Assembly: GCF_026151205.1 (NCBI RefSeq)
Contig: NC_087083.1
Coordinates: 5,188,460 to 5,248,459 of the forward strand
DNA: 60,000 nt
Direction of reading: 5' to 3'
Source of the DNA: Bolinopsis microptera
Taxonomy: Eukaryota > Ctenophora > Tentaculata > Lobata > Bolinopsidae
In this document: positions 1 to 11,900 of the stretch, piece after piece
Layout: each line of letters begins with the position of its first letter
Position numbering within the stretch: position 1 is the stretch's first letter
Notes under the pieces: model-generated
The model's database searches: none
Seen by the model: the letters and a program-made list of their open reading frames with translations, nothing else
What the model was told of the DNA's origin: nothing
Translations under genes and position numbers: made by a program

Positions 1-361
1 AATATTGTAATAGTGGTTGTCATAGAATAGAGATAATATATAAGCGTTTTATCGAGTTAGGCGATGGTCAGGGGGGAGGGGGAACCCCCCCCCCCCCCCC
101 CATGGTGAGATTTTAAGCTGTAAACTGATTCACTGTTGGCACATGTCCATTTCTAATACAATTAACGTTGATAAAAATAACCTCATGTGTTTGAGCCGAT
201 TGGCTCGGTCACAACACGTACTCAAATTACATGTGCTTTAGATTTTAACTTACAATTCACTTTAACATGTCAGTTCATCCTAAACAATGGTTTACATTTT
301 TTACGTCGAATTTAACTAAGATCACGCACAAGATGTCATCCTGACATTCCCTTCAAATTGA
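1..361. other. Non-coding leader region, probably intron
   Basis: No open frame of note on either strand and no recognisable exon or RNA gene. The only structure is the G/C-run hairpin at 71-101. Because a probable internal exon with an acceptor lies downstream at 1333 on the + strand, this stretch is most simply the 3' part of an intron whose upstream exon lies before the window. Confidence 0.5.
71..101. repeat. Adjacent G-run and C-run (hairpin-forming homopolymer pair)
   Basis: A 12-base G-run interrupted by one A is followed, after two A residues, by 17 consecutive C residues. The halves are complementary and could fold into a G:C hairpin; either strand could also form quadruplex or i-motif structures. 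Long C homopolymers recur in the satellite array from 5975 onward, but the flanks here share nothing with it. The exact run length is unreliable in most sequencing chemistries. Confidence 0.8.
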
Positions 362-1351
362 ACTAATATCATACCACTAACAAGATATTATCCCTCTCAG
401 AGTGAACTAACAAGATATGACCCCTCTCAGAGTGAACTAATATCATACCACTAACAAGATATTACCCCTCTCAGAGTGAACTAACAAGATATTATCCCTC
501 TCAGAGTGAACTAATATCATACCACTAACAAGATATTATCCCTCTCAGAGTGAACTAATATCATACCACTAACAAGATATTACCCCTCTCAGAGTGAACT
601 AATATCATACCACTAACAAGATATTACCCCTCTCAGAGTGAACTAATATCATACCACTAACAAGATATTACCCCTCTCAGAGTGAACTAATATCATACCA
701 CTAACAAGATATTACCCCTCTCAGAGTGAACTAATATCATACTACTAACAAGATATTACCCCTCTCAGAGTGAACTAATATCATACCACTAACAAGATAT
801 TACCCCTCTCAGAGTGAACTAATATCATACCACTAACAAGATATTACCCCTCTCAGAGTGAACTAATATCATACCACTAACAAGATATTACTCCTCTCAG
901 AGTGAACTAACAAGATATTACCCCTCTCAGAGTGAACTACCAAGATATTACCCCTCTCATAGTGAACTAACAAGATATTACCCCTCTCAGAGTGAACTAA
1001 TATCATTCCACTAACAAGATATTACTCCTCTCAGAGTGAACTAACAAGATATTACTCCTCTCAGAGTGAACTAACAAGATATTACCCCTCTCATAGTGAA
1101 CTAACAAGATATTACCCCTCTCAGAGTGAACTAATATCATACCACTAACAAGATATTACCCCTCTCAGAGTGAACTAACAAGATATTACCCCTCTCAGAG
1201 TGAACTAATATCATACCACTAACAAGATATTACCCCTCTCAGAGTGAACTAACAAGATATTACCCCTCTCATAGTGAACTAACAAGATATTACCCCTCTC
1301 AGAGTGAACTAACAAGATATTACCCCTCTCAGAGTGAACTAATATCGTATC
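362..1351 (+). repeat. 44/30-bp composite minisatellite carrying repeated splice-acceptor motifs
   Basis: 26 tandem copies of a 30-bp core; 14 of them are preceded by a 14-bp spacer, giving 44-bp long units and 30-bp short units (14x44 + 12x30 = 976 bp, matching 362-1337). A last spacer-like block at 1338-1351 is the start of the exon itself. Unit order is L S L S, nine L, S S S, L S S S, L S, L S S S. Variation is by substitution only, for example CAG to CAT in cores 15, 19 and 24 and CCC to CTC in cores 13, 17 and 18. Each core contains CTAAC (a branch-point-like motif), about 12 nt later a pyrimidine tract, then CAG: a full 3' splice site. The spacer matches the first codons of the exon at 1333. 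I infer that the array grew by tandem duplication of an intron/exon junction. Confidence 0.93.
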
Positions 1352-1479
1352 AAGAGCAGATCAGGAGTTTGTCACTAAGCAAAGCGTCCTTGAGCGCGGA
1401 AATTACTAACGTCTCCAAGAAGTGCGGTGAACTGGAACAGAAGATCGTGGACCTGCCTTTGATTAAGAAGGAGAATAAG
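1333..1479 (+). CDS. Probable internal exon of a coiled-coil protein (gene otherwise outside the window)
   Basis: Open frame of exactly 49 codons from an acceptor (CCCCTCTCAG, ending 1332) to a consensus donor (AAG|GTGGGT, GT at 1480-1481). It is visibly more GC-rich than its surroundings. The peptide opens SELISYQEQIRSLSLSK and has a near-perfect heptad pattern: a-positions at residues 3, 10, 17, 24, 31, 38 and d-positions at 6, 13, 20, 27, 34, 41 are all non-polar or Cys except Lys17. That is a coiled coil, but no family can be named from it. If unspliced, the frame would stop at 1516-1518. A second possibility is a 52-bp mini-intron (1480-1531, ending in a T-rich TTTAG) followed by a 10-codon terminal exon with stop at 1562-1564. 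In-frame alternative acceptors lie at 1243 and 1303. There is no ATG and no similarity evidence, so the call rests on splice sites, heptads and base composition. Confidence 0.6.
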
Positions 1480-2260
1480 GTGGGTATTTATTATATTATT
1501 TATTTAATTGTTTGTTAAATAATTTTTTTAGAAACACACCATACAAACTGTACATAAAAATTAAGGTAACGGTACTGAAGATATTATGACACTATTCCTC
1601 CCGTTGTTATAAAGACTTTGTTTTGTTGTTAAACAATTCCCTTCCACAAATATAAATTATGGCACATAATTTTAGTAAAAAACACGCAGAGTCACTCTAA
1701 GTCTAAAAGAAAATTAACCCTTCGCACGACTTTGGATCGGATTAAATTTTGGCTCAAGAATTGGATCATGAAAAAGTACATTTAAAAAAGTACATTCACA
1801 TACCCTTATATACCAAACCAATTTGGTGTAAAAATACAACATTTACCACATTTTGGTTATCTCGTATTGTGCTAACATTTATACCACTAAGTTTTATTAT
1901 TACTATAAATTATATAATTGTGAGATGTACTGAGTAACACACACAACAACAGTAGTGGTTCGATGTGGTGAAAGTTACTGATACCATTATGGTTGAAGTG
2001 TATATTATTATACATATTTATTTATTATTATGTATATTTTATGTAGGCTATTTGCATACTTTTGTTCGTGTTGGACGGAGAAATGATACGACCTTGTAAT
2101 CACAAAAAATCGAAAAAGTATCCATTGAAATTTAAAATCAATAATGATTCTAAAATGTATAAGAATTTCTTACACTGAAACTCATAACATTATAACTGAT
2201 ACGATCTGTCTGAAGTAAACCTCAGTTCCGCTTACAGGCAGGCTGCAGATGTGGGGAGGG
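1480..2260. other. Non-coding AT-rich stretch (intron or intergenic)
   Basis: Nothing coding is supported. A 62-codon frame at 1749-1937 starts at TTG and looks like chance AT-rich translation. A short ACAC-rich stretch lies near 1937-1950 and an AT-rich TTATTA/TATTTA stretch at about 2005-2045. The region separates the + strand coiled-coil exon from the 3' end of the minus-strand receptor gene. Confidence 0.6.
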
Positions 2261-2492
2261 TCATCGCCATTTCTCATTTATTTTTGGAGGTTCAATTTTC
2301 GCTATTGAAGGCTGGCAAAATGGCAATACAAAATTTCGATGATTTGACCATTCACTAAAACTTGTCCATCGATAAATGGTAGTGAAGGCGATTTTTTTGC
2401 TATCATAGCCATTTATTTAATTCTTAAACTTTTTAGCCATTTCACCAAGCGAAAATTACATTCTCCATTTCTTTTTTTTAAAGTGGCGATGA
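2261..2492. mobile_element. Possible MITE-like element with 12-bp terminal inverted repeats
   Basis: TCATCGCCATTT at 2261-2272 is the inverted complement of 2481-2492 with one mismatch, enclosing 232 bp of AT-rich non-coding DNA that contains several CCATTT motifs. Size and structure suit a small non-autonomous DNA transposon. No clear target-site duplication flanks it, and a 12-bp match can occur by chance. It lies in the 3' flank, or possibly the 3' UTR, of the receptor gene. Confidence 0.25.
2412..2417 (-). promoter_or_regulatory. Candidate poly(A) signal of the GPCR gene
   Basis: TTTATT on the + strand reads AATAAA on the minus strand, 261 nt downstream of the receptor stop codon. A second AATAAA is at 2277-2282 on the minus strand. 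Either could end the transcript; the nearer one gives a 3' UTR of about 280 nt. This is motif evidence only, in AT-rich sequence. Confidence 0.4.
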
Positions 2493-2677
2493 TTCTTCCA
2501 GACATTTAGCACTAATCACAAAACAGTAGTACAGAGAAATCATTATAAATTTAACAATTCTTCGTGAGCATTAATATTCTTATTTAATAAGCACACTTTG
2601 CTTACACCCAAAAGATAGCACAGTGTGAATATACGTGAGCAGTAACTGAGTAACTTGGAATTTTTCATATACACAAA

Positions 2678-5600
2678 CTACAATGAGTCCATGATGCGGT
2701 TTTTTCTTCCAAAGGAATCTGTTCCGGTAATTATAATATTTGGAATGATAAACTGCACCGGATTTGATGTTTGAGCAGTTGCGGTGATAATGTTCATTTC
2801 CATTCCTTCGCCTGGTATATCTTGTGTGATATCTGAAGCTAACCCTAGAATTGCAAGTAGATTACTCAGCCTCAATTGGAGGCTAATGAAGAACTGTTTT
2901 GTTTTGGTAAATAATTGTTTTTTGTCCCCGTTTATAAGCGGATTTATGACTGAGTTGACGGGAAGTATGATTAACGAGAATATGGGATATGTTGAGGTTG
3001 CATCGATCTGTCCAAGAGAATGTAATCCACAAACAAAAATAAACGGTACCCAGCATATGAAATCTGTTAATATAATCATCGCAATTTTTCTTTGGTCCTT
3101 TTTCCTTTCTCGAACCAACTGCATTTGATCGATTTCTTCCAGTTCCACAGTTTCAGCCGATGTTTTTGTTTTGACAATGATGAGTCCATAGCAAAAGCAA
3201 ATTGTTAAGAAGCAGAACAAGTTGACTCCTAAGCAAAGCCACACAAAGGCTTTTTGTGGATCATTGTTCTGGACGAAGTACTTGAAAAGACAAACTCCGT
3301 CTGTACCATAAAAATGGATTTTCTTTCGGTCAAGTGTCCCTTTGTTGTAATCACTTGTGAACATTTCGTCAATCAGTGAGTTTATGCGTTGCCATGAGGT
3401 ATCATCTTGTAACCTTAAATTCCCATAGAAACTTTTTATAACACCCATGTGAGTTTTTTTATCCACATACGGTAAAAACAGTTTTACATTAGGGTTGTAT
3501 GTCATTCCGTTAACAAACAAATCTTCAAAAGAGGATAGAAGAGGCCCAATAGCTATCATAAGGCTTGGAACAGTAACAATCATAATCAAACCAGCGATTT
3601 TCAATAAAAGGTTTTCTAGCATATTAAACTTTAAATTAAAAACTTCGAACAAACGGAACATGCTGAATGAAGTCATCGAAAATAGGGATATTTGTGCGCC
3701 AAATGTACTTACCACTCCTAGCGATGAACACATGGTGCTTGATAACCAGACATATTGCTGCTTGCAGTATCCTTCTCCGTAAATGATGGAATCCACAATT
3801 GCAATGCAAAGCAGGTAAATACCTGTGAGAAGATCTCCGATATTGATGAGCAGCGCAAATGTTGTATTGATCACAGTGTTGTTTACTCCAATGTTTTTGG
3901 ATAATGATATAAAATTGCTGATCATACGCGTAATATTTAGTATGACTGCAACAACCCCAATGATCCAACTGACTACTTTAAATAAAATCCCAGAAATTAT
4001 TTGCCTACCACAGTCTTCACCACATTCATCCGAGTAGTCAGAGCATTGAACAATGCCGTTGCACTTTTGTGTGCTGGGAATGAAGTCTCTGGTCAAATTA
4101 CAAGAAAAAACGTTAGAACAGTTTGTTTCATCGGAAAGGTCTCCACAATCGTCCACTAGATTACAAACTTTGTCATGAGTTATACAATGTTCGTTTTCAC
4201 AACGAAATAGTTCCTTTTGTAAATACCTATTTGTAACACTTATAAAAGCTAAACTGGTCCCATCACGTGTGACAGATATAGTATTATCTTTAAAATTTTC
4301 ACCTCCAGATCCACAGGCTTTCGTGAGTTTGGCGACTTTTAATGGACAAACCAGAGAGTGTAGACATCTTTTTTTGCAGGTCATAAAAACGTATTGCTCG
4401 CCATAGAAGCTTTTGCATTCATGTTTTTTCTCTGGTAGAAAGATTGACAACGGAGCATTTACTCCTAAAATGCCGGTGTCTGGGATTTGGAAGGTTTCAT
4501 GAGAGCACGATGAGATGTGCTGACCCATACTAAGAGCAATTCCAGGGAGACAGTATGACACAAATTTTGTCGGGAAATCCTTAATGTCCCTCCATAGGTG
4601 TTTATGATAATACGCTTTACTTATAACATTTTTGGATGGTCTTGTTTTTTTACAAGCAGCTTTTTCTACTGAGCAGGTGTTTAAGCCATTACACATACTC
4701 TCCAGTTTCACAAATCCAGTGGTCTCTGGCCCACACTTGAATACGTTTTTACAAAAATGACCTTCTGGCAAGTATCGGAACGAAGTGCCAACTTTGCAGG
4801 TCGGCCAGAGGTTCAGTTCATCTTCCCCTCCGGTACAATCCTGCAATCCATCACTAAGCCACGATATGGGCAGACTCAGAGGCATATCATGACGATATCT
4901 GCGGGCACACGTTCCTTCAGTCATGTCATGACATTCCTCGATATTTTCATCACTATGATCAACACAATCAAAATTTCCATCACAAAGTTGATGTTTATGA
5001 ACCTTGCATCGGAAAGAAGGTTCTCTGCAAAGTACATCGAAATGGTCATCACACAAAGAGTTTACCAGAGGTAAATCCATACAAATGATTGTAGGAGACA
5101 AAGTTGTCATAAATCCGCTTATAGGACATGTCAATACAGCTCGCTTTGCGTCCGTGCAATTCATTTGGTCAAAATAATTACTGCATAAAGGGATGACATA
5201 ATCATCGTAGAACATAATGTGTGAGCTATTTTCCTTGAAGGAATATACGGGGGGTTTCTCTAAAGCTGCGCATCTTGTAAAATTGTGAATTGGTATCGAA
5301 CGGAAATTGTTGTTGTTGTTAGAAGCACATTTCTGGGTATCAGATTTCAAATCCATGTCAAAACAATTTCTCTCGTCTTCCCCATAATCACAATCCCACA
5401 CTGAATCACAAATTTCAATTGGTCTGACATATGTTTGTGTTTTTCCTTTTTTGCAAATAATTCCATACAGAAAACCGTTGCAAAATGCTTCGTCGAAACA
5501 ATCTAGAGAATCGCAGTGTAGGTCGCACAAAGAAATGATTATTTCAGAAACTTTTGGGCAAAAGGCTTTCATATCACAAGAAACAATTGATTGAAACAGT

Positions 5601-5986
5601 TTGTCATTTCGCGTTTTATCGCAAACCCAACTGTAATCCATAATTTCGTGCCATTTTTTACCTCTGAAACGTACATTGGATGTATTGCACATAGTCGCAT
5701 CGTCGTAAATACCATTCAGGTCCATTGACAGCTGTTCATACTCTACCAGTTCATTAACCGAATGCAAAAGAAGCTGGTAGTTGAAATGCTTATCATTTGG
5801 GCATATTTTAGAAACATAAACTTGGAATAAGTTCTCATCCTCGTATAGAGATGGTTTGGAGAAAACTGCAAGTACATAAATGACTGTATAATATGTTTCT
5901 GACCATACACATTTCTGTACTATAAAAAGATGTTCTTCAACACATACGATTTGAATTGTTATACCGTAATGTAATGTAATTTCCAA
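2678..5986 (-). CDS. LDLa-domain rhodopsin-family GPCR, GRL101-like (partial: 5' exon missing)
   Basis: Predicted plasma-membrane receptor with a long cysteine-rich ectodomain and a 7-helix core; ligand unknown. In frame coordinates (1102 codons), LDL-receptor class A modules lie at about 163-208, 320-352, a degenerate pair at 360-397 and 412-445, then 596-623 and 629-659, several with the acidic SDE/GEDE calcium-binding signature. Helices: TM1 665-685, TM2 707-733, TM3 745-775, TM4 793-817, TM5 912-938, TM6 967-991, TM7 1000-1019. TM6 has CWVP (978-981). The DRY-equivalent is FRL (Arg778), and NPxxY reads NPLIN (1015-1019). Extracellular loop 2 is unusually long (about 95 residues). LDLa modules plus the relaxin-receptor-like TM3 (CxxLGxxST) point to the GRL101/relaxin-receptor branch, but I see no leucine-rich repeats, which GRL101 and relaxin receptors have. 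The frame opens at TTG (5986), just after a stop, and the first ATG is at codon 88. It is therefore a 3' exon: likely acceptors put its start at 5919 (TTTTTATAG) or 5865 (TTGCAG). No frameshift anywhere. Stop TAG is at 2678-2680. Confidence 0.9.
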   Translation of the reverse strand: MEITLHYGITIQIVCVEEHLFIVQKCVWSETYYTVIYVLAVFSKPSLYEDENLFQVYVSKICPNDKHFNYQLLLHSVNELVEYEQLSMDLNGIYDDATMCNTSNVRFRGKKWHEIMDYSWVCDKTRNDKLFQSIVSCDMKAFCPKVSEIIISLCDLHCDSLDCFDEAFCNGFLYGIICKKGKTQTYVRPIEICDSVWDCDYGEDERNCFDMDLKSDTQKCASNNNNNFRSIPIHNFTRCAALEKPPVYSFKENSSHIMFYDDYVIPLCSNYFDQMNCTDAKRAVLTCPISGFMTTLSPTIICMDLPLVNSLCDDHFDVLCREPSFRCKVHKHQLCDGNFDCVDHSDENIEECHDMTEGTCARRYRHDMPLSLPISWLSDGLQDCTGGEDELNLWPTCKVGTSFRYLPEGHFCKNVFKCGPETTGFVKLESMCNGLNTCSVEKAACKKTRPSKNVISKAYYHKHLWRDIKDFPTKFVSYCLPGIALSMGQHISSCSHETFQIPDTGILGVNAPLSIFLPEKKHECKSFYGEQYVFMTCKKRCLHSLVCPLKVAKLTKACGSGGENFKDNTISVTRDGTSLAFISVTNRYLQKELFRCENEHCITHDKVCNLVDDCGDLSDETNCSNVFSCNLTRDFIPSTQKCNGIVQCSDYSDECGEDCGRQIISGILFKVVSWIIGVVAVILNITRMISNFISLSKNIGVNNTVINTTFALLINIGDLLTGIYLLCIAIVDSIIYGEGYCKQQYVWLSSTMCSSLGVVSTFGAQISLFSMTSFSMFRLFEVFNLKFNMLENLLLKIAGLIMIVTVPSLMIAIGPLLSSFEDLFVNGMTYNPNVKLFLPYVDKKTHMGVIKSFYGNLRLQDDTSWQRINSLIDEMFTSDYNKGTLDRKKIHFYGTDGVCLFKYFVQNNDPQKAFVWLCLGVNLFCFLTICFCYGLIIVKTKTSAETVELEEIDQMQLVRERKKDQRKIAMIILTDFICWVPFIFVCGLHSLGQIDATSTYPIFSLIILPVNSVINPLINGDKKQLFTKTKQFFISLQLRLSNLLAILGLASDITQDIPGEGMEMNIITATAQTSNPVQFIIPNIIITGTDSFGRKNRIMDSL
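5865..5921 (-). promoter_or_regulatory. Candidate 3' splice sites for the GPCR exon
   Basis: On the minus strand, a T-rich CTTTTTATAG ends at 5920, so the exon would start at 5919. TATGTACTTGCAG ends at 5866, so the exon would start at 5865. Both leave the downstream frame open. The first has the better pyrimidine tract, and using it would keep the Cys-containing segment CVWSETYY. One of them is needed because the frame has no credible start codon and no signal peptide. Confidence 0.45.
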
Positions 5987-5995
5987 TTACTGATT
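5960..5995. repeat. Left junction of the satellite array with unique DNA
   Basis: Single-copy sequence of the receptor exon changes to satellite within about 20 bp. Satellite identity begins inside the monomer's own palindrome (AATTGG-TAATTAT-CCAATT); the last unique bases are a short GTAAT-rich stretch. Monomer 1 is complete and as similar to the others as any internal copy, so the edge shows no gradual decay. Confidence 0.8.
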
Positions 5996-8900
5996 GTCCG
6001 ATGTAAAAACTTTTGATACAAAAGTTTTAACTCCTTGATAAGATAAACATTCTAAGGTTAATTTGCAGCCTTCTATGATGTTCACAACTAAAGATATTGC
6101 AAACCAGAAAGGTGGTACAAAGGTGGTAAAAATGGTAAAAAGTGTGTTTCCGTTGAGATACAAAATTGGCAACAAGTCTAATTATGTTCGTAGGGGTCCT
6201 AACTACCATATTCCGTTTAAAATCCTTGTGAACATTCGAAACCAACGGAATGCCAATTTTCCCCTTAACTATTCATGCTAAAAAATGCCTCCATTATGTC
6301 ATGACGTGAAGATTCTTAGTCCATCATTTAGACATGTGCCTGCACATTTTCAGATACCCACGAAACTTTGCAACTGGTGACCTTCCCAAAGGATGAATAA
6401 ACACGATTTCGGTTGAGACATTTTTTTACCTTGGCAAAACCCGGAGGGCCCAAGCCCATATTGACCCAATAACTAACTGACCCCTTGCTTCTGAGTCGTA
6501 GAGACTCAAAATAGGCTTCAACGAACCGCATATGCAAGCGAGGTATTAACATAGAACGGGGAGCAAACATGGGCTGATATAACCAATTTGCTCTATTTTG
6601 GTGCACATTTCCCTCCAATAACCACTACAAGTAAGCATTTTAGGGTTGCATGTTGCTTCATAAGTTGTTATAAAAACATGCCATCTGCACATTTGCATTC
6701 ATATTCAAAAATCTCTAAGTCGCCTTCATAGCTTCAAAGTACCACATACCCATATTTTTTGCATGATTTCGGGAACCGAAAAATCAGTTTATCGCCAAAA
6801 ACTGTAAAAGTACGCACTTTAAGGCATATGTTTCTTCGTAAGTCATATATAAATATGCCAATTGCGGTTCTTTTGGCACTCTATCCAAAGACTCCTATCA
6901 CATCCTATCAAAAGTTATAAAATCGGCTCATCGTGCCACGCCCAAATGGTTTATTGGCGAATTTCTCGAAAAGTAAGGATTTTAGCAATGTGTTGACAAT
7001 AACTCATATATAGAACCTGCAATATGCGCTTCGTTTTAAGCCTATTTGGAAGTCTCTACGACCTCAGAACAAGGTAATATTTACACTCGCTTCCTATACC
7101 CCCCCCCCCCCTCCCCCCCCTATAATACCAGGCCTCTTCGCGAGGTTCGAGAGTGACAAAAAGTGCGACAGTTAAAGAAACCCCTGTGATAACTCGCATT
7201 CTTGCACAACCTGGTCTAATTATAGAGGTAAATAAAGAGGTCCTGTACATTCAGATACCCGGTATAGATTGGCAAGATTGACAGAGTTTTGGATCATTGA
7301 AATCATAAAATGATAGTACAAGCAGGTAAAAATCGTTCGATCTAAATGGGCCTTATTGTTCTGTTTCTTTATGTGGAATTTGATAAAGCTGTATTGTAAT
7401 TAGTTACGAAACTCTAATATTGTGTGGTTAACCTTTTCAGTCCAGCCCTTTCCGCTAGCAATTCCAAATTACTAAAATATCGAGATTTAATGAAACTCCA
7501 ACCTTCAATATTGATTATTTTAGTATTCCTCAATCTAAAAAATCTCGAAATTTTTCTGCAAGGCATTTTTATATCCACGTTCATGCAATTCGATCACTTT
7601 TGCGGAAAAAATATTTTCAAATTTTCCAAACTTTTTTTCAAGTCTCGAAAAAAAATTTAAGTGAAAAATTATGAGTTTTTCTAAAAAACTACATTTCTCC
7701 GTGTTTCAAACGATTTTTAAATCATATTAAGCCAATAAACAATTTTCACTTTTTTTGGTGATTAACTAATTGGTAATTATCCAATTATGCTGATTGTCCG
7801 GATGTAAAAACGTTTGATACAAAGTTTACTCCTTGTATGGGAAGATAAACATTCTAGGTTAATTTGCAGCCTTCTATGATGATCACAACAAAAGATAATT
7901 GCAAAGCCAGAAAGGTGGTACAAAAGGTGGTAAAAAGTGGTAAGAGATGGTGTTTCCGTTGAGATACAAAAGTGCGCAACAAGTCTAATTATGTTCCGTA
8001 GGGGTCCAAACTACCATATTCCGTTGAGAAATCCTTGTGAACATTCGAATCCAACGGAAATGCCACTTTTTTTTCCCCTTACTATTCAACTAATAATGCA
8101 TACATTATGTCATGACTGTGAAGATTCTAGTCCAGTCCATTTATGGACATGTGCCTGCAAATTTTTCAGATACCCCGAAACTTTGCACAGAACTTCCCAT
8201 AGGTATGAATAAACGATTTTCGGTTGGAGAACATTTTTTTTACCTTGCAAAACCCAGGAGGCCACGCCCATAGTGAACCCAATAACGTAACTGAACCCCT
8301 TGCTTCTGAAGGTCCGTAAGAACTTCAAAATAGACTAAACGAAGCCGCAATGCATGCGAGTTATTAACATAGAACGGGAGGCAAAAATGCTGATATAACC
8401 AATTTTGCTCTATTTTGTGCACATTACCTCCAAATAACTCGAAAAGTAACATTTTAGGGTGCAATGGTTGCTCATAAGTTGTATATAAACATGGGGCCAT
8501 TCTGCACAATTTGCACTCATTCAAAAATCACAAGGCTTCATAGCTGAATGTACCACAAACCCATATTTTTGCATGATTTCTGGAACCGAAAATCAGTTTT
8601 TCGCCAATAACAGTAAAAGTAAGCACTAAGGCATATGTTCGCACCGAAGTCATATAAAAATATGCCACATTGCGGTTCCTTTTGCACTCTATCCAAAGAC
8701 TCTATCACAAGCCTATCAAAAGTAGTAAAATCGGCTCAGCGCACGACCAAAATGTTTTTGGGAATTTCTCGAAAAGTAAGATTTAGGGCAATGTGTGCTC
8801 AATAACACTTAATATAAACAATGCATATGGGCTTCGTTTAAGCCTATTTTGAAGTCTCTCGACCTTCAGAAGCAAGGTATATTTACACTCGCTTCCTATA

Positions 8901-11900
8901 GGTGTCACCCCCCCCCCCTCCCCCCCCCACCCCCCCCCCCCCCCCCCCCTATAATACAGGCCTCATGCGAGTTGCGAGAGTGACAAAAAGTGCACAGTTT
9001 AAGAAACCCCTGTGAGAAAACGCATTTCTTGCACAACTGGGTCAAATAATGAGGTAAATAAGAGTCCGGTACATTCAGATACCCGGTATAGATTGGCAAG
9101 ATTGACAAGGGATTTGATCATTGAAATCAATAAAATGATAGTACAGCATGAAAATCGTTCACGATCTAAATGGTCCTTTATGTGCTGTTTCTTATGTTGA
9201 ATTTGATAAGCTGTAATGTAATTAGTTACGAAACTCTAATATTGTGTGGGTTAACTTTTCAGGTCCACCCTTTCCGCTAAGCAATTCCTAATTTACTTGA
9301 AAATATGTCGAGATTTACTGAACTCCAACTTTCAAATATTGACGATTTTAGTATTCCTCAAACTAAAAATCTCGAAATTATTTCAGCAAGGCATTTTATC
9401 CACGTTTCATGCAATTCGATCACTTTTGGCGGAAAAAAATATTTTCAAATTTTCAAACTTTTATTTTCAAGTCTCGAAAAAAATTTAAGTGAAAAATTTT
9501 TAAGTTTTTCTAAAAACTACATTTCTCCCGTGTTTCAAAAACGATTTAAATCATTTAAAGCCAATAAAAAATTTTCCTTTTTTTGGTGATTAACTAATTG
9601 GTAATTATCCAATTAGCTGATTTGTCCGATGTAAAAACTTTTGATACAAAGTTTTAACTCCTTGATAGAGATAGGGAGGAACAATTCTAGGTTAATTTGC
9701 AGCCTTCTATGATGTTTCACACTAAAGAATATTTGGCAAACCAGAAAAGGTGTTACAAAGGTGGTAAAAAGTGGTAAAAGGTGGTGTTTTTCCGTTGAGA
9801 TACAGAAATTGGCAAACAAGTCTAATTTGTTCGTAGGGGTCCTAACTACAACTTCCTTGAGAAAATCCTTGTGAGACATTCGAATCCAAAAGGAATGCCA
9901 CTTCCCCTTACTATTCATGCGTAATAATCATACATTATGTCATGACTGTGAAGATTCTTAGTCCAGTATTTTATGGACATGTCCTGCAAATTTCAGATAC
10001 CCACGATAACTTTGCACATAACTTCCAAAGGTATGAATAAACGATTTTCGTTGGAGACATTTTTTACCTTGCAAAACCCAGGAGGGCCACGCCCATATTG
10101 ACCCAAAACGTAACTGACCCCTTGCTTCTGAAGGTCGTAGAAGACTCAAAATAGGCCTTAAACGAAGCCGCATATGCAATGCGAGTTATTACATAGAACG
10201 GGAGGCAAAAATGGCTGATAAACCAATTTGTTGCTCTATTATTGTGCACATCTCCAAATAACTCGCAAAGTAAGCATTTTAGGTGCATGTTGCTTCATAA
10301 TTGTATATAAACATGGCCATTCTGCACAATTTGCACGCATATCAAAATTCTCTAAGCCTGCATAGCTCCATTGTACCACAACCCATTTTTTGCATGATTT
10401 CTGGGAACCGAAAATCAGTTTTTCGCCAATAACTGTAAAAGGAAGCACTTTTACGGCAAATATGTTCCATCTAAGTCATATATAAATATTCCAATTGCGT
10501 TCTTTGCACTCTATCCAAAGACTCTATCACAATCCTATCAAAAAGTTAGTAAAATCGTCTCAGCGCCACGCCCCAAAATGGTTTTGGCGAAATTTCTCGA
10601 AAAGTAAGGATTTTAGGCAATCGTGTTGATCAATAACTACTCTTATATAAAACAAGCATATGCGGCTTCGTTTAAGCCTATTATTGAAGTCTCTACGACC
10701 TTCAAATCAAGGTATATTTACACTCGCTTCCTATACCCCCCCCCCCCCGCCCCCTATAATACCAGGCCTCTTGCGAGTTGCGAGAGTGACAAAAAAGTGC
10801 ACAGTTCAAGAAACCCCTGGTGAGAAATCCATTTCTGTCACAACTGGGTCTAATTATAGAGGGAAATAAAGAGTCCGGTAACATTCAGAGAACCCGTATA
10901 GATTGGCAAGATAGACAGAGTTTTGATCATTGAAATCAATAAAATGATAGTACAGCAGGTAAAATCGGTTCTCGATCTTAAATGGTCCCTTTTGTGCTGT
11001 TTCTTTAATGGTGGAAAATTTTGATAAAGCGTATTGTAATTAGTTACGAAACCTAATATTGTTGTGGTTAACCTTTTTCAGGTCCAGGCCCTTTCCGCTA
11101 AGAGCTATTCCTAACTACTAAATTGTCGAGATTTACTGAACTCCAACTTCAAATATTGATGATTTTAAGTATTCCTCAATCTAAAATCTTCGAAATTTTC
11201 TGCAAGGCAATTTTAAGTCCACTTTCATGCATTTCGATCACTTTTGGCGGAAAAAAATATTTCAAATTTCAAACTTTTTTTTTTCAAGTCTCGAAAAAAA
11301 AATTTTAAGTGAAAAATTTTTGGAAGTTTTTCTAAAAACTACATTTCATCCGTGGTTCAAACGATTAAATCATTTTAAGCCAATAAAAAATTTTCACTTT
11401 TTTTGTGATTAAACTAATTGGTAATTAACCAATTAGCTGATTTTGTCCGATGTAAAAAACTTTTGATACAAAAGTTTTACACTCCTGATAAGATAAACAT
11501 TCTAGGTAATTTGCAGCCTTTCTATGATGTTTCACAACTAAAGATATTTGGCAAACCAGATAAGGAGGTACCAAGGTGGTAAAGAAGTGGTAAAATGTGG
11601 TGTTTCCGTTGAGATACAAAATTGGCAACAAGTCTAATTATTTCGTAGGGGGTCCTAACTACCATATCCGTTTGAAAATCCTTGTGAACATTCGAATCCA
11701 ACGAATGCCAACTTATTCCCCTTACGAATCATGCTAATAAAGCCAGTACATATGTCATGACAGTGAAGATTCTTAGTCCAGTCATTTAGGGACGTGACTG
11801 CCAAATTTTCAATACCCACGAAACTTTGCACAGAACTTTCAAAGGTATGAATAAAACGATTTTCGGTTGGAGACATGTTTTTTACCTTGGGCAAAACCCC

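Follow-up and report, generated by a model that had tools for sequence, protein, structure and literature searches.

A minisatellite of duplicated 3′ splice sites abutting exon 5 of TMF1

Intron 4 of a TMF1 gene ends in a minisatellite built from copies of its own junction with exon 5, with 26 units at the locus under study (copy A) and 48 at a second locus (copy B), i.e., two copies in one assembly. The array is very probably a "mirage" minisatellite, in which splicing would go most likely mainly to the last copy of the acceptor and the upstream acceptors would be spare. The locus lies near the start of the window, by which we mean the whole stretch of 60,000 bases that was analyzed (C12:5188460-5248459, position 1 being C12:5188460). 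Genome-wide searches covered an assembly of 264.65 Mb in 232 contigs; those by sequence scored the best candidates only and skipped common words.

The units were counted by two routes. The 30-nt unit, used as a pattern with up to three mismatches across the window, gave 26 matches, all in 376-1337 and none elsewhere in the window, against 0 expected from 100 dinucleotide shuffles. Splitting the array at its CTCTCA[G/T] ends returned the same 26 units. Both routes thus confirmed the 26 tandem copies of the original prediction, with the borders moved from 362-1342 to 359-1332; the unit similarity runs past 1332 into the exon because the unit itself copies the exon. The distance from one unit end to the next was 44 nt in 13 cases and 30 nt in 12 (Table 1). 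Each unit presents, in order, a branch-like CTAAC (CTACC in one), a pyrimidine tract, CAG or CAT, and the first bases of the exon. The branch-like adenosine of CTAAC lies at -21, in agreement with the predicted normal spacing of about 20 nt between branch point and acceptor. A full set of CTAAC, tract, and CAG had been claimed for every unit and was found in most; 23 of the 26 end in CAG and three in CAT (at 960, 1094, and 1272), the first of these also being the unit with CTACC.

Table 1. Features of the TMF1 locus in the window (positions in nucleotides from the start of the window)
Feature	Position	Strand	Basis or remark
TMF1 intron 4, non-repeated part	1..358	+	Intron 4 starts at C12:5188302, upstream of the window
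Array of 26 tandem units of 44 or 30 nt, copies of the intron 4/exon 5 junction	359..1332	+	Unit splitting, pattern search
Unit with impaired signals (CTACC in place of CTAAC, CAT in place of CAG)	931..960	+	
Unit ending in CAT, without acceptor AG	1065..1094	+	
Unit ending in CAT, without acceptor AG	1243..1272	+	
Last unit, with the probable authentic acceptor of exon 5 at junction 1332/1333	1303..1332	+	PF12325 match without net gap; next junction upstream scores lower
TMF1 exon 5 (147 nt), reading SELISYQEQIRSLSLSKASLSAEITNVSKKCGELEQKIVDLPLIKKENK, with donor AATAAG/gtgggt	1333..1479	+	Joined reading frame, Pfam test
TMF1 intron 5	1480..5989	+	Assigned by homology to copy B, with which similarity extends to 5975

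The exon that follows the array was assigned through the joined gene. TMF1 exons 1 to 4 lie at C12:5184716-5188301, and exon 4 ends at C12:5188301 with the donor TCACAG/gtaagg. Together with exon 5 they form a stop-free frame of 1,061 codons, which exon 6 from copy B completes to a protein of 1,108 residues plus stop. The joined protein scored 44 bits with TMF_DNA_bd (cut-off, 35) and 86.1 bits with TMF_TATA_bd (PF12325; cut-off, 29.1), and its match to Fez1 was below the cut-off for that profile. As both TMF domains exceed their cut-offs, the gene carrying the array is, on its domain content, TATA element modulatory factor 1 (TMF1). With TMF_TATA_bd, residues 996-1102 align to profile positions 9-115, i.e., 107 residues to 107 positions and no net gap, across exons 4, 5, and 6. 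This match without net gap over the exon 4/5 and exon 5/6 joins indicates that the junction 1332/1333 keeps the domain whole. A C-terminal fragment built with this junction scored 92.2 bits, and one built with the next acceptor upstream, which adds 10 residues, scored 77.5. Exon 5 by itself gave no PF12325 score genome-wide, where only the exon 6 piece was matched (profile 73-115); its assignment therefore rests on the joined protein. We also take the region of the exon 5 junction to resemble human TMF1. Array and exon 5 abut exactly at 1332/1333, and the coding exon on whose acceptor the array had been predicted to end is thus TMF1 exon 5, as judged by the Pfam test across the junction.

The units themselves point to their source. 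The 44-nt unit equals intron positions -25 to -1 followed by exon positions +1 to +19, with two mismatches, at exon positions 15 and 18. By inspection, the 30-nt unit is the 44-nt unit minus the 14 nt between its two copies of ACTAA. Both exon mismatches were present in all complete 44-nt units inspected, indicating that they arose early or that the exon changed later. Finding a splice-site motif in repeat units of this kind is no more than moderately surprising, and the motif is insufficient to carry the case by itself. Among 20,000 dinucleotide shuffles made for each unit type, a loose 3′ splice-site motif appeared in 2,422 for the 44-nt unit and in 1,803 for the 30-nt unit, i.e., in 9 to 12% of shuffled units; a strict one (CTAAC, YAG, and pyrimidines at 9 or more of 10 positions) appeared in 14 and 3, respectively, or less than 0.1%. 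What decided the case was the abutment on the TMF1 exon together with the exon-derived 19 nt, 17 of which are identical to the start of exon 5; the original prediction had placed a copy of the first codons of the exon in the 14-bp spacer of the long units. On these two grounds, tandem duplication of an intron/exon junction, originally put forward as the simplest reading, is well supported.

In the course of events that we favor, the TMF1 intron 4/exon 5 junction, comprising about 25 nt of intron (with branch site, tract, and CAG) and the first 19 nt of the exon, would have been duplicated in tandem. The 44-nt form would be the older one, and the 30-nt form would have arisen from it by deletion of 14 nt between the two ACTAA repeats. 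Blocks of several units would afterwards have been duplicated or lost.

The second locus offered a comparison. A homologous block occurs twice on contig C12, in direct orientation and about 180 kb apart, at 5171133-5194434 (copy A, 23.3 kb) and 4992683-5011509 (copy B, 18.8 kb); TMF1 of copy B spans C12:4999357-5014814. Between the two genes, 12 of the 3,183 positions in exons 1 to 5 are different, none of them among the 147 of exon 5. The arrays share the order of long and short units at their left ends and differ in the middle. CAG is found in 43 of the 48 copy B units, so that 5 of the 48 end in CAT, and within the copy B array blocks of units recur at offsets of 30, 134, 414, 518, 652, and 1,066 nt. 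It is also split by a 1,288-bp insertion (L002 2092-3379, C12:5004091-5005378) that has inverted ends (poly-G/C, then CCAATGGCATAAATGGAG-like) and a 9-bp direct repeat, AATATCATA, on both sides; in sequence this insertion looks like an inverted-repeat transposon. Short repeats are present in intron 5 of copy B as well, of the TTAATCACGTGTGG type at L004 3270-3460 and of the CACCYTACAATAA type at 5010-5270, the latter ending directly before exon 6.

By sequence, the acceptors that might compete in front of exon 5 in copy A number 23 and not up to 26, as the original prediction had it, because three units end in CAT. Fourteen of the 22 live AGs upstream of the last one in copy A are identical to it over -25 to +10, and each of the remaining 8 departs from it by a single base; with the last included, 15 of 23 live acceptors in copy A and 30 of 43 in copy B are identical over this stretch. 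To judge from these 35 nt, the true acceptor cannot be singled out by local sequence, and the choice must depend on position or on more distant signals. Nothing local would explain the silence of the upstream acceptors, which counts against the mirage reading. Reading on from each acceptor, we predict that 3 of 23 in copy A (+0, +30, and +90 nt) and 6 of 43 in copy B (+0 to +210 nt) keep the frame without a stop, the remaining 20 and 37, respectively, meeting one. Each of the copy B stops precedes the exon 5 end by 377 nt or more, and stops so far before an exon end expose an mRNA to nonsense-mediated decay.

Under the mirage reading, splicing would most likely go mainly to the last copy, the one contiguous with the complete exon. 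The upstream copies would be spare acceptors, probably little used because it is the last one that adjoins the real exon with its donor site. Where the +30 or +90 acceptor was used, it would add 10 or 30 residues in the form of SELTRYYPS[Q/H] repeats. Live acceptors beyond +90 in copy A would, where used, lead to a stop and hence to a truncated product, or to an mRNA open to nonsense-mediated decay if exon 6 follows. Published precedent favors the view that the upstream copies would be harmless spares, in that amphioxus mirages are reported, in the sections consulted, not to disturb regular splicing (PMC3087553, PMC3902484).

The same precedent weighs against a working splicing rheostat, which we consider rather unlikely. 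In such a device, the spare acceptors would be used appreciably and would lead mostly to a stop, the length of the array would set the amount of productive TMF1 mRNA, and a few acceptors would add 10 to 70 coiled-coil residues. The equality of spare and last acceptors over 35 nt and the preponderance of stops in both copies are consistent with it, as are the units nearest the exon, which are 30 nt long, in frame, and stop-free. Human minisatellites provide some encouragement: IFI6 (6-16, G1P3) uses repeat units as splice donors (PMC4526556), and among the repeat-driven intron modifications of human duplicated genes, 66% are accompanied by an alternative transcript in which the repeat is retained, according to the part of that report consulted (PMC2812944). 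Yet an extension by 10 residues lowers the domain score, and units ending in CAT are tolerated in both arrays (3 of 26 in copy A and 5 of 48 in copy B). A more specific proposal, that of a length-variable functional decoy-acceptor array outside cephalochordates in which the number of upstream 44-nt units would set the proportion of TMF1 transcripts lost to premature stops and the in-frame 30-nt units adjoining the exon would add 10 to 70 residues to the C-terminal coiled coil, appears unlikely. Recursive splicing and micro-exons within the array were considered and rejected; GT does lie one base past the acceptor (CAGA/GTGAAC), and the resulting donor is by eye too poor.

Copy A is 3′-truncated, interrupted, or misassembled, and the gene of copy B, in which the same array stands, is complete. 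TMF1 exon 6 has a single match in the genome, at C12:5014669 in copy B, and the window copy, from 1480 onward, yielded no match to this last exon. With exon 6 found in copy B only, the transcript of the window copy may be defective. From 5990 the sequence of copy A passes into a 1.8-kb satellite. Thirty direct copies of this satellite, with a unit of 1.82 kb, fill 5990-60000, the last being cut by the end of the window; they are 82 to 86% identical to a reference unit at 7788-9605, and the satellite was still present in a sample at C12:5256000 and absent from one at C12:5266000. Intron 5 of copy A contains, on the minus strand at 2678-5986, a single open reading frame of 1,102 amino acids with LDL-receptor class A and seven-transmembrane (rhodopsin-like) domains, resembling GRL101-type receptors.

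We regard it as improbable that the array length or the second copy is an artefact of assembly or haplotypes. On the side of an artefact, the homologous block is short, copy A runs straight into the satellite, and exon 6 was found once in the genome; copies A and B might be a pair of haplotypes joined into a single contig. One amphioxus mirage, too, looked misassembled in a genome draft (PMC3087553, sections consulted). However, arrays are present in both copies, with a different unit order and with an insertion in one. No N was found in two joined stretches of 104,360 and 55,201 bases or in four 1-kb samples of the 125 kb that separates them. The 27 kb (copy A) and 28.6 kb (copy B) examined to the left of the block contained no match longer than 250 nt, which argues against an artefact because a misplaced haplotype would be expected to continue there.

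Very improbably, the events ran the other way, and the first bases of exon 5 came from a satellite that was already there. The 17 of 19 nt that unit and exon have in common would fit such a capture, but exon 5 sits inside the TMF_TATA_bd match without a net gap. Being part of a conserved domain, the exon is probably the older partner. The array DNA was also confined to the two loci among the best candidates of the genome search. A dispersed satellite was thereby discarded as a candidate: a 121-nt array query gave 27 matches among the best candidates, common words skipped, and 27 of 27 fell at the two C12 loci. A search for an array-free paralogue found exon 5 twice among the best candidates, both times with an array; conversely, at both loci found the repeat was accompanied by the exon. 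As for a sink that would titrate branch-point and U2AF factors, the presence within a single intron of 26 or 48 branch/tract/AG sets that are nearly identical could suggest it, and one or two genes set against such abundant factors make it scarcely credible.

Tandem repeats across intron-exon boundaries have been described as mirages in amphioxus Adh3, TnC, and globin genes (PMC3087553, PMC3902484), those of TnC and PGBD5 having been added by the second of these reports (PMC3902484). Their units measure 10 to 72 bp in Adh3 and 150 to 160 bp in globins, haplotypes of BflGb6 carry 6 and 3 units, and somatic instability is reported for the Adh3 mirage (PMC3087553, PMC3902484). Going by the consulted sections of both reports, the TMF1 array has in common with them units that span an intron end and an exon start, a unit size within the published range, a copy number that differs between two copies of the locus (be they alleles or paralogues here), and splice signals kept in many repeats. 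It is likewise a head-to-tail minisatellite abutting what the domain test indicates to be the authentic junction of its gene. It differs in affecting another gene, in its 26 and 48 units compared with the 6 and 3 of BflGb6, and in the complete branch/tract/acceptor set of nearly every unit. Genome-wide searches for the GFP family, for GH6 (a mark of tunicates), and for Chitin_bind_4 (a mark of arthropods) each gave 0 matches, as did their 14 controls, and are therefore weak indications. The lack of a GFP-family match and the assembly size of 265 Mb are slight indications that the host is not an amphioxus, amphioxus having a larger genome and GFP genes. COX1 also gave 0 matches, with 8 of 14 controls responding; a mitochondrial contig is thus probably absent from the assembly.

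The IFI6 minisatellite consists of 26 repeats of 12 bp. It resembles the TMF1 array in lying at an exon edge and multiplying a splice site; as far as the consulted part of the report goes, the site multiplied there is a donor whose use is published, whereas the TMF1 array multiplies putative acceptors. By eye, the TMF1 unit does not match an IFI6-type donor consensus (AGA/GTGAAC being a poor donor). In human duplicated genes, variable tandem repeats at exon-intron boundaries have on average four units of 30 bp; these minisatellite changes also touch splice boundaries in recent paralogues, while the TMF1 array places dozens of intact acceptors before one exon (PMC2812944, sections consulted). 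CeRep25B of Caenorhabditis elegans was set aside as a parallel, as it consists, in the part of the source consulted, of intronic motifs and not of duplicated junctions (PMC4039745). No other 3′ splice-site array of such size was found in the part of the literature searched, most subscription papers being outside its scope.

The anatomy and the origin of the TMF1 array are firm, and the array is an extreme case of the mirages already described in amphioxus. With many acceptors identical over 35 nt, it amounts to a natural competition experiment in cis; the acceptor used would tell whether position, be it nearest to the exon or first transcribed, and not local sequence decides the choice. In addition, the junction is observed here in the course of its multiplication, the raw material proposed for new introns in the model of the amphioxus work (PMC3087553, sections consulted). 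If the host is not an amphioxus, the array would widen the known range of mirages.
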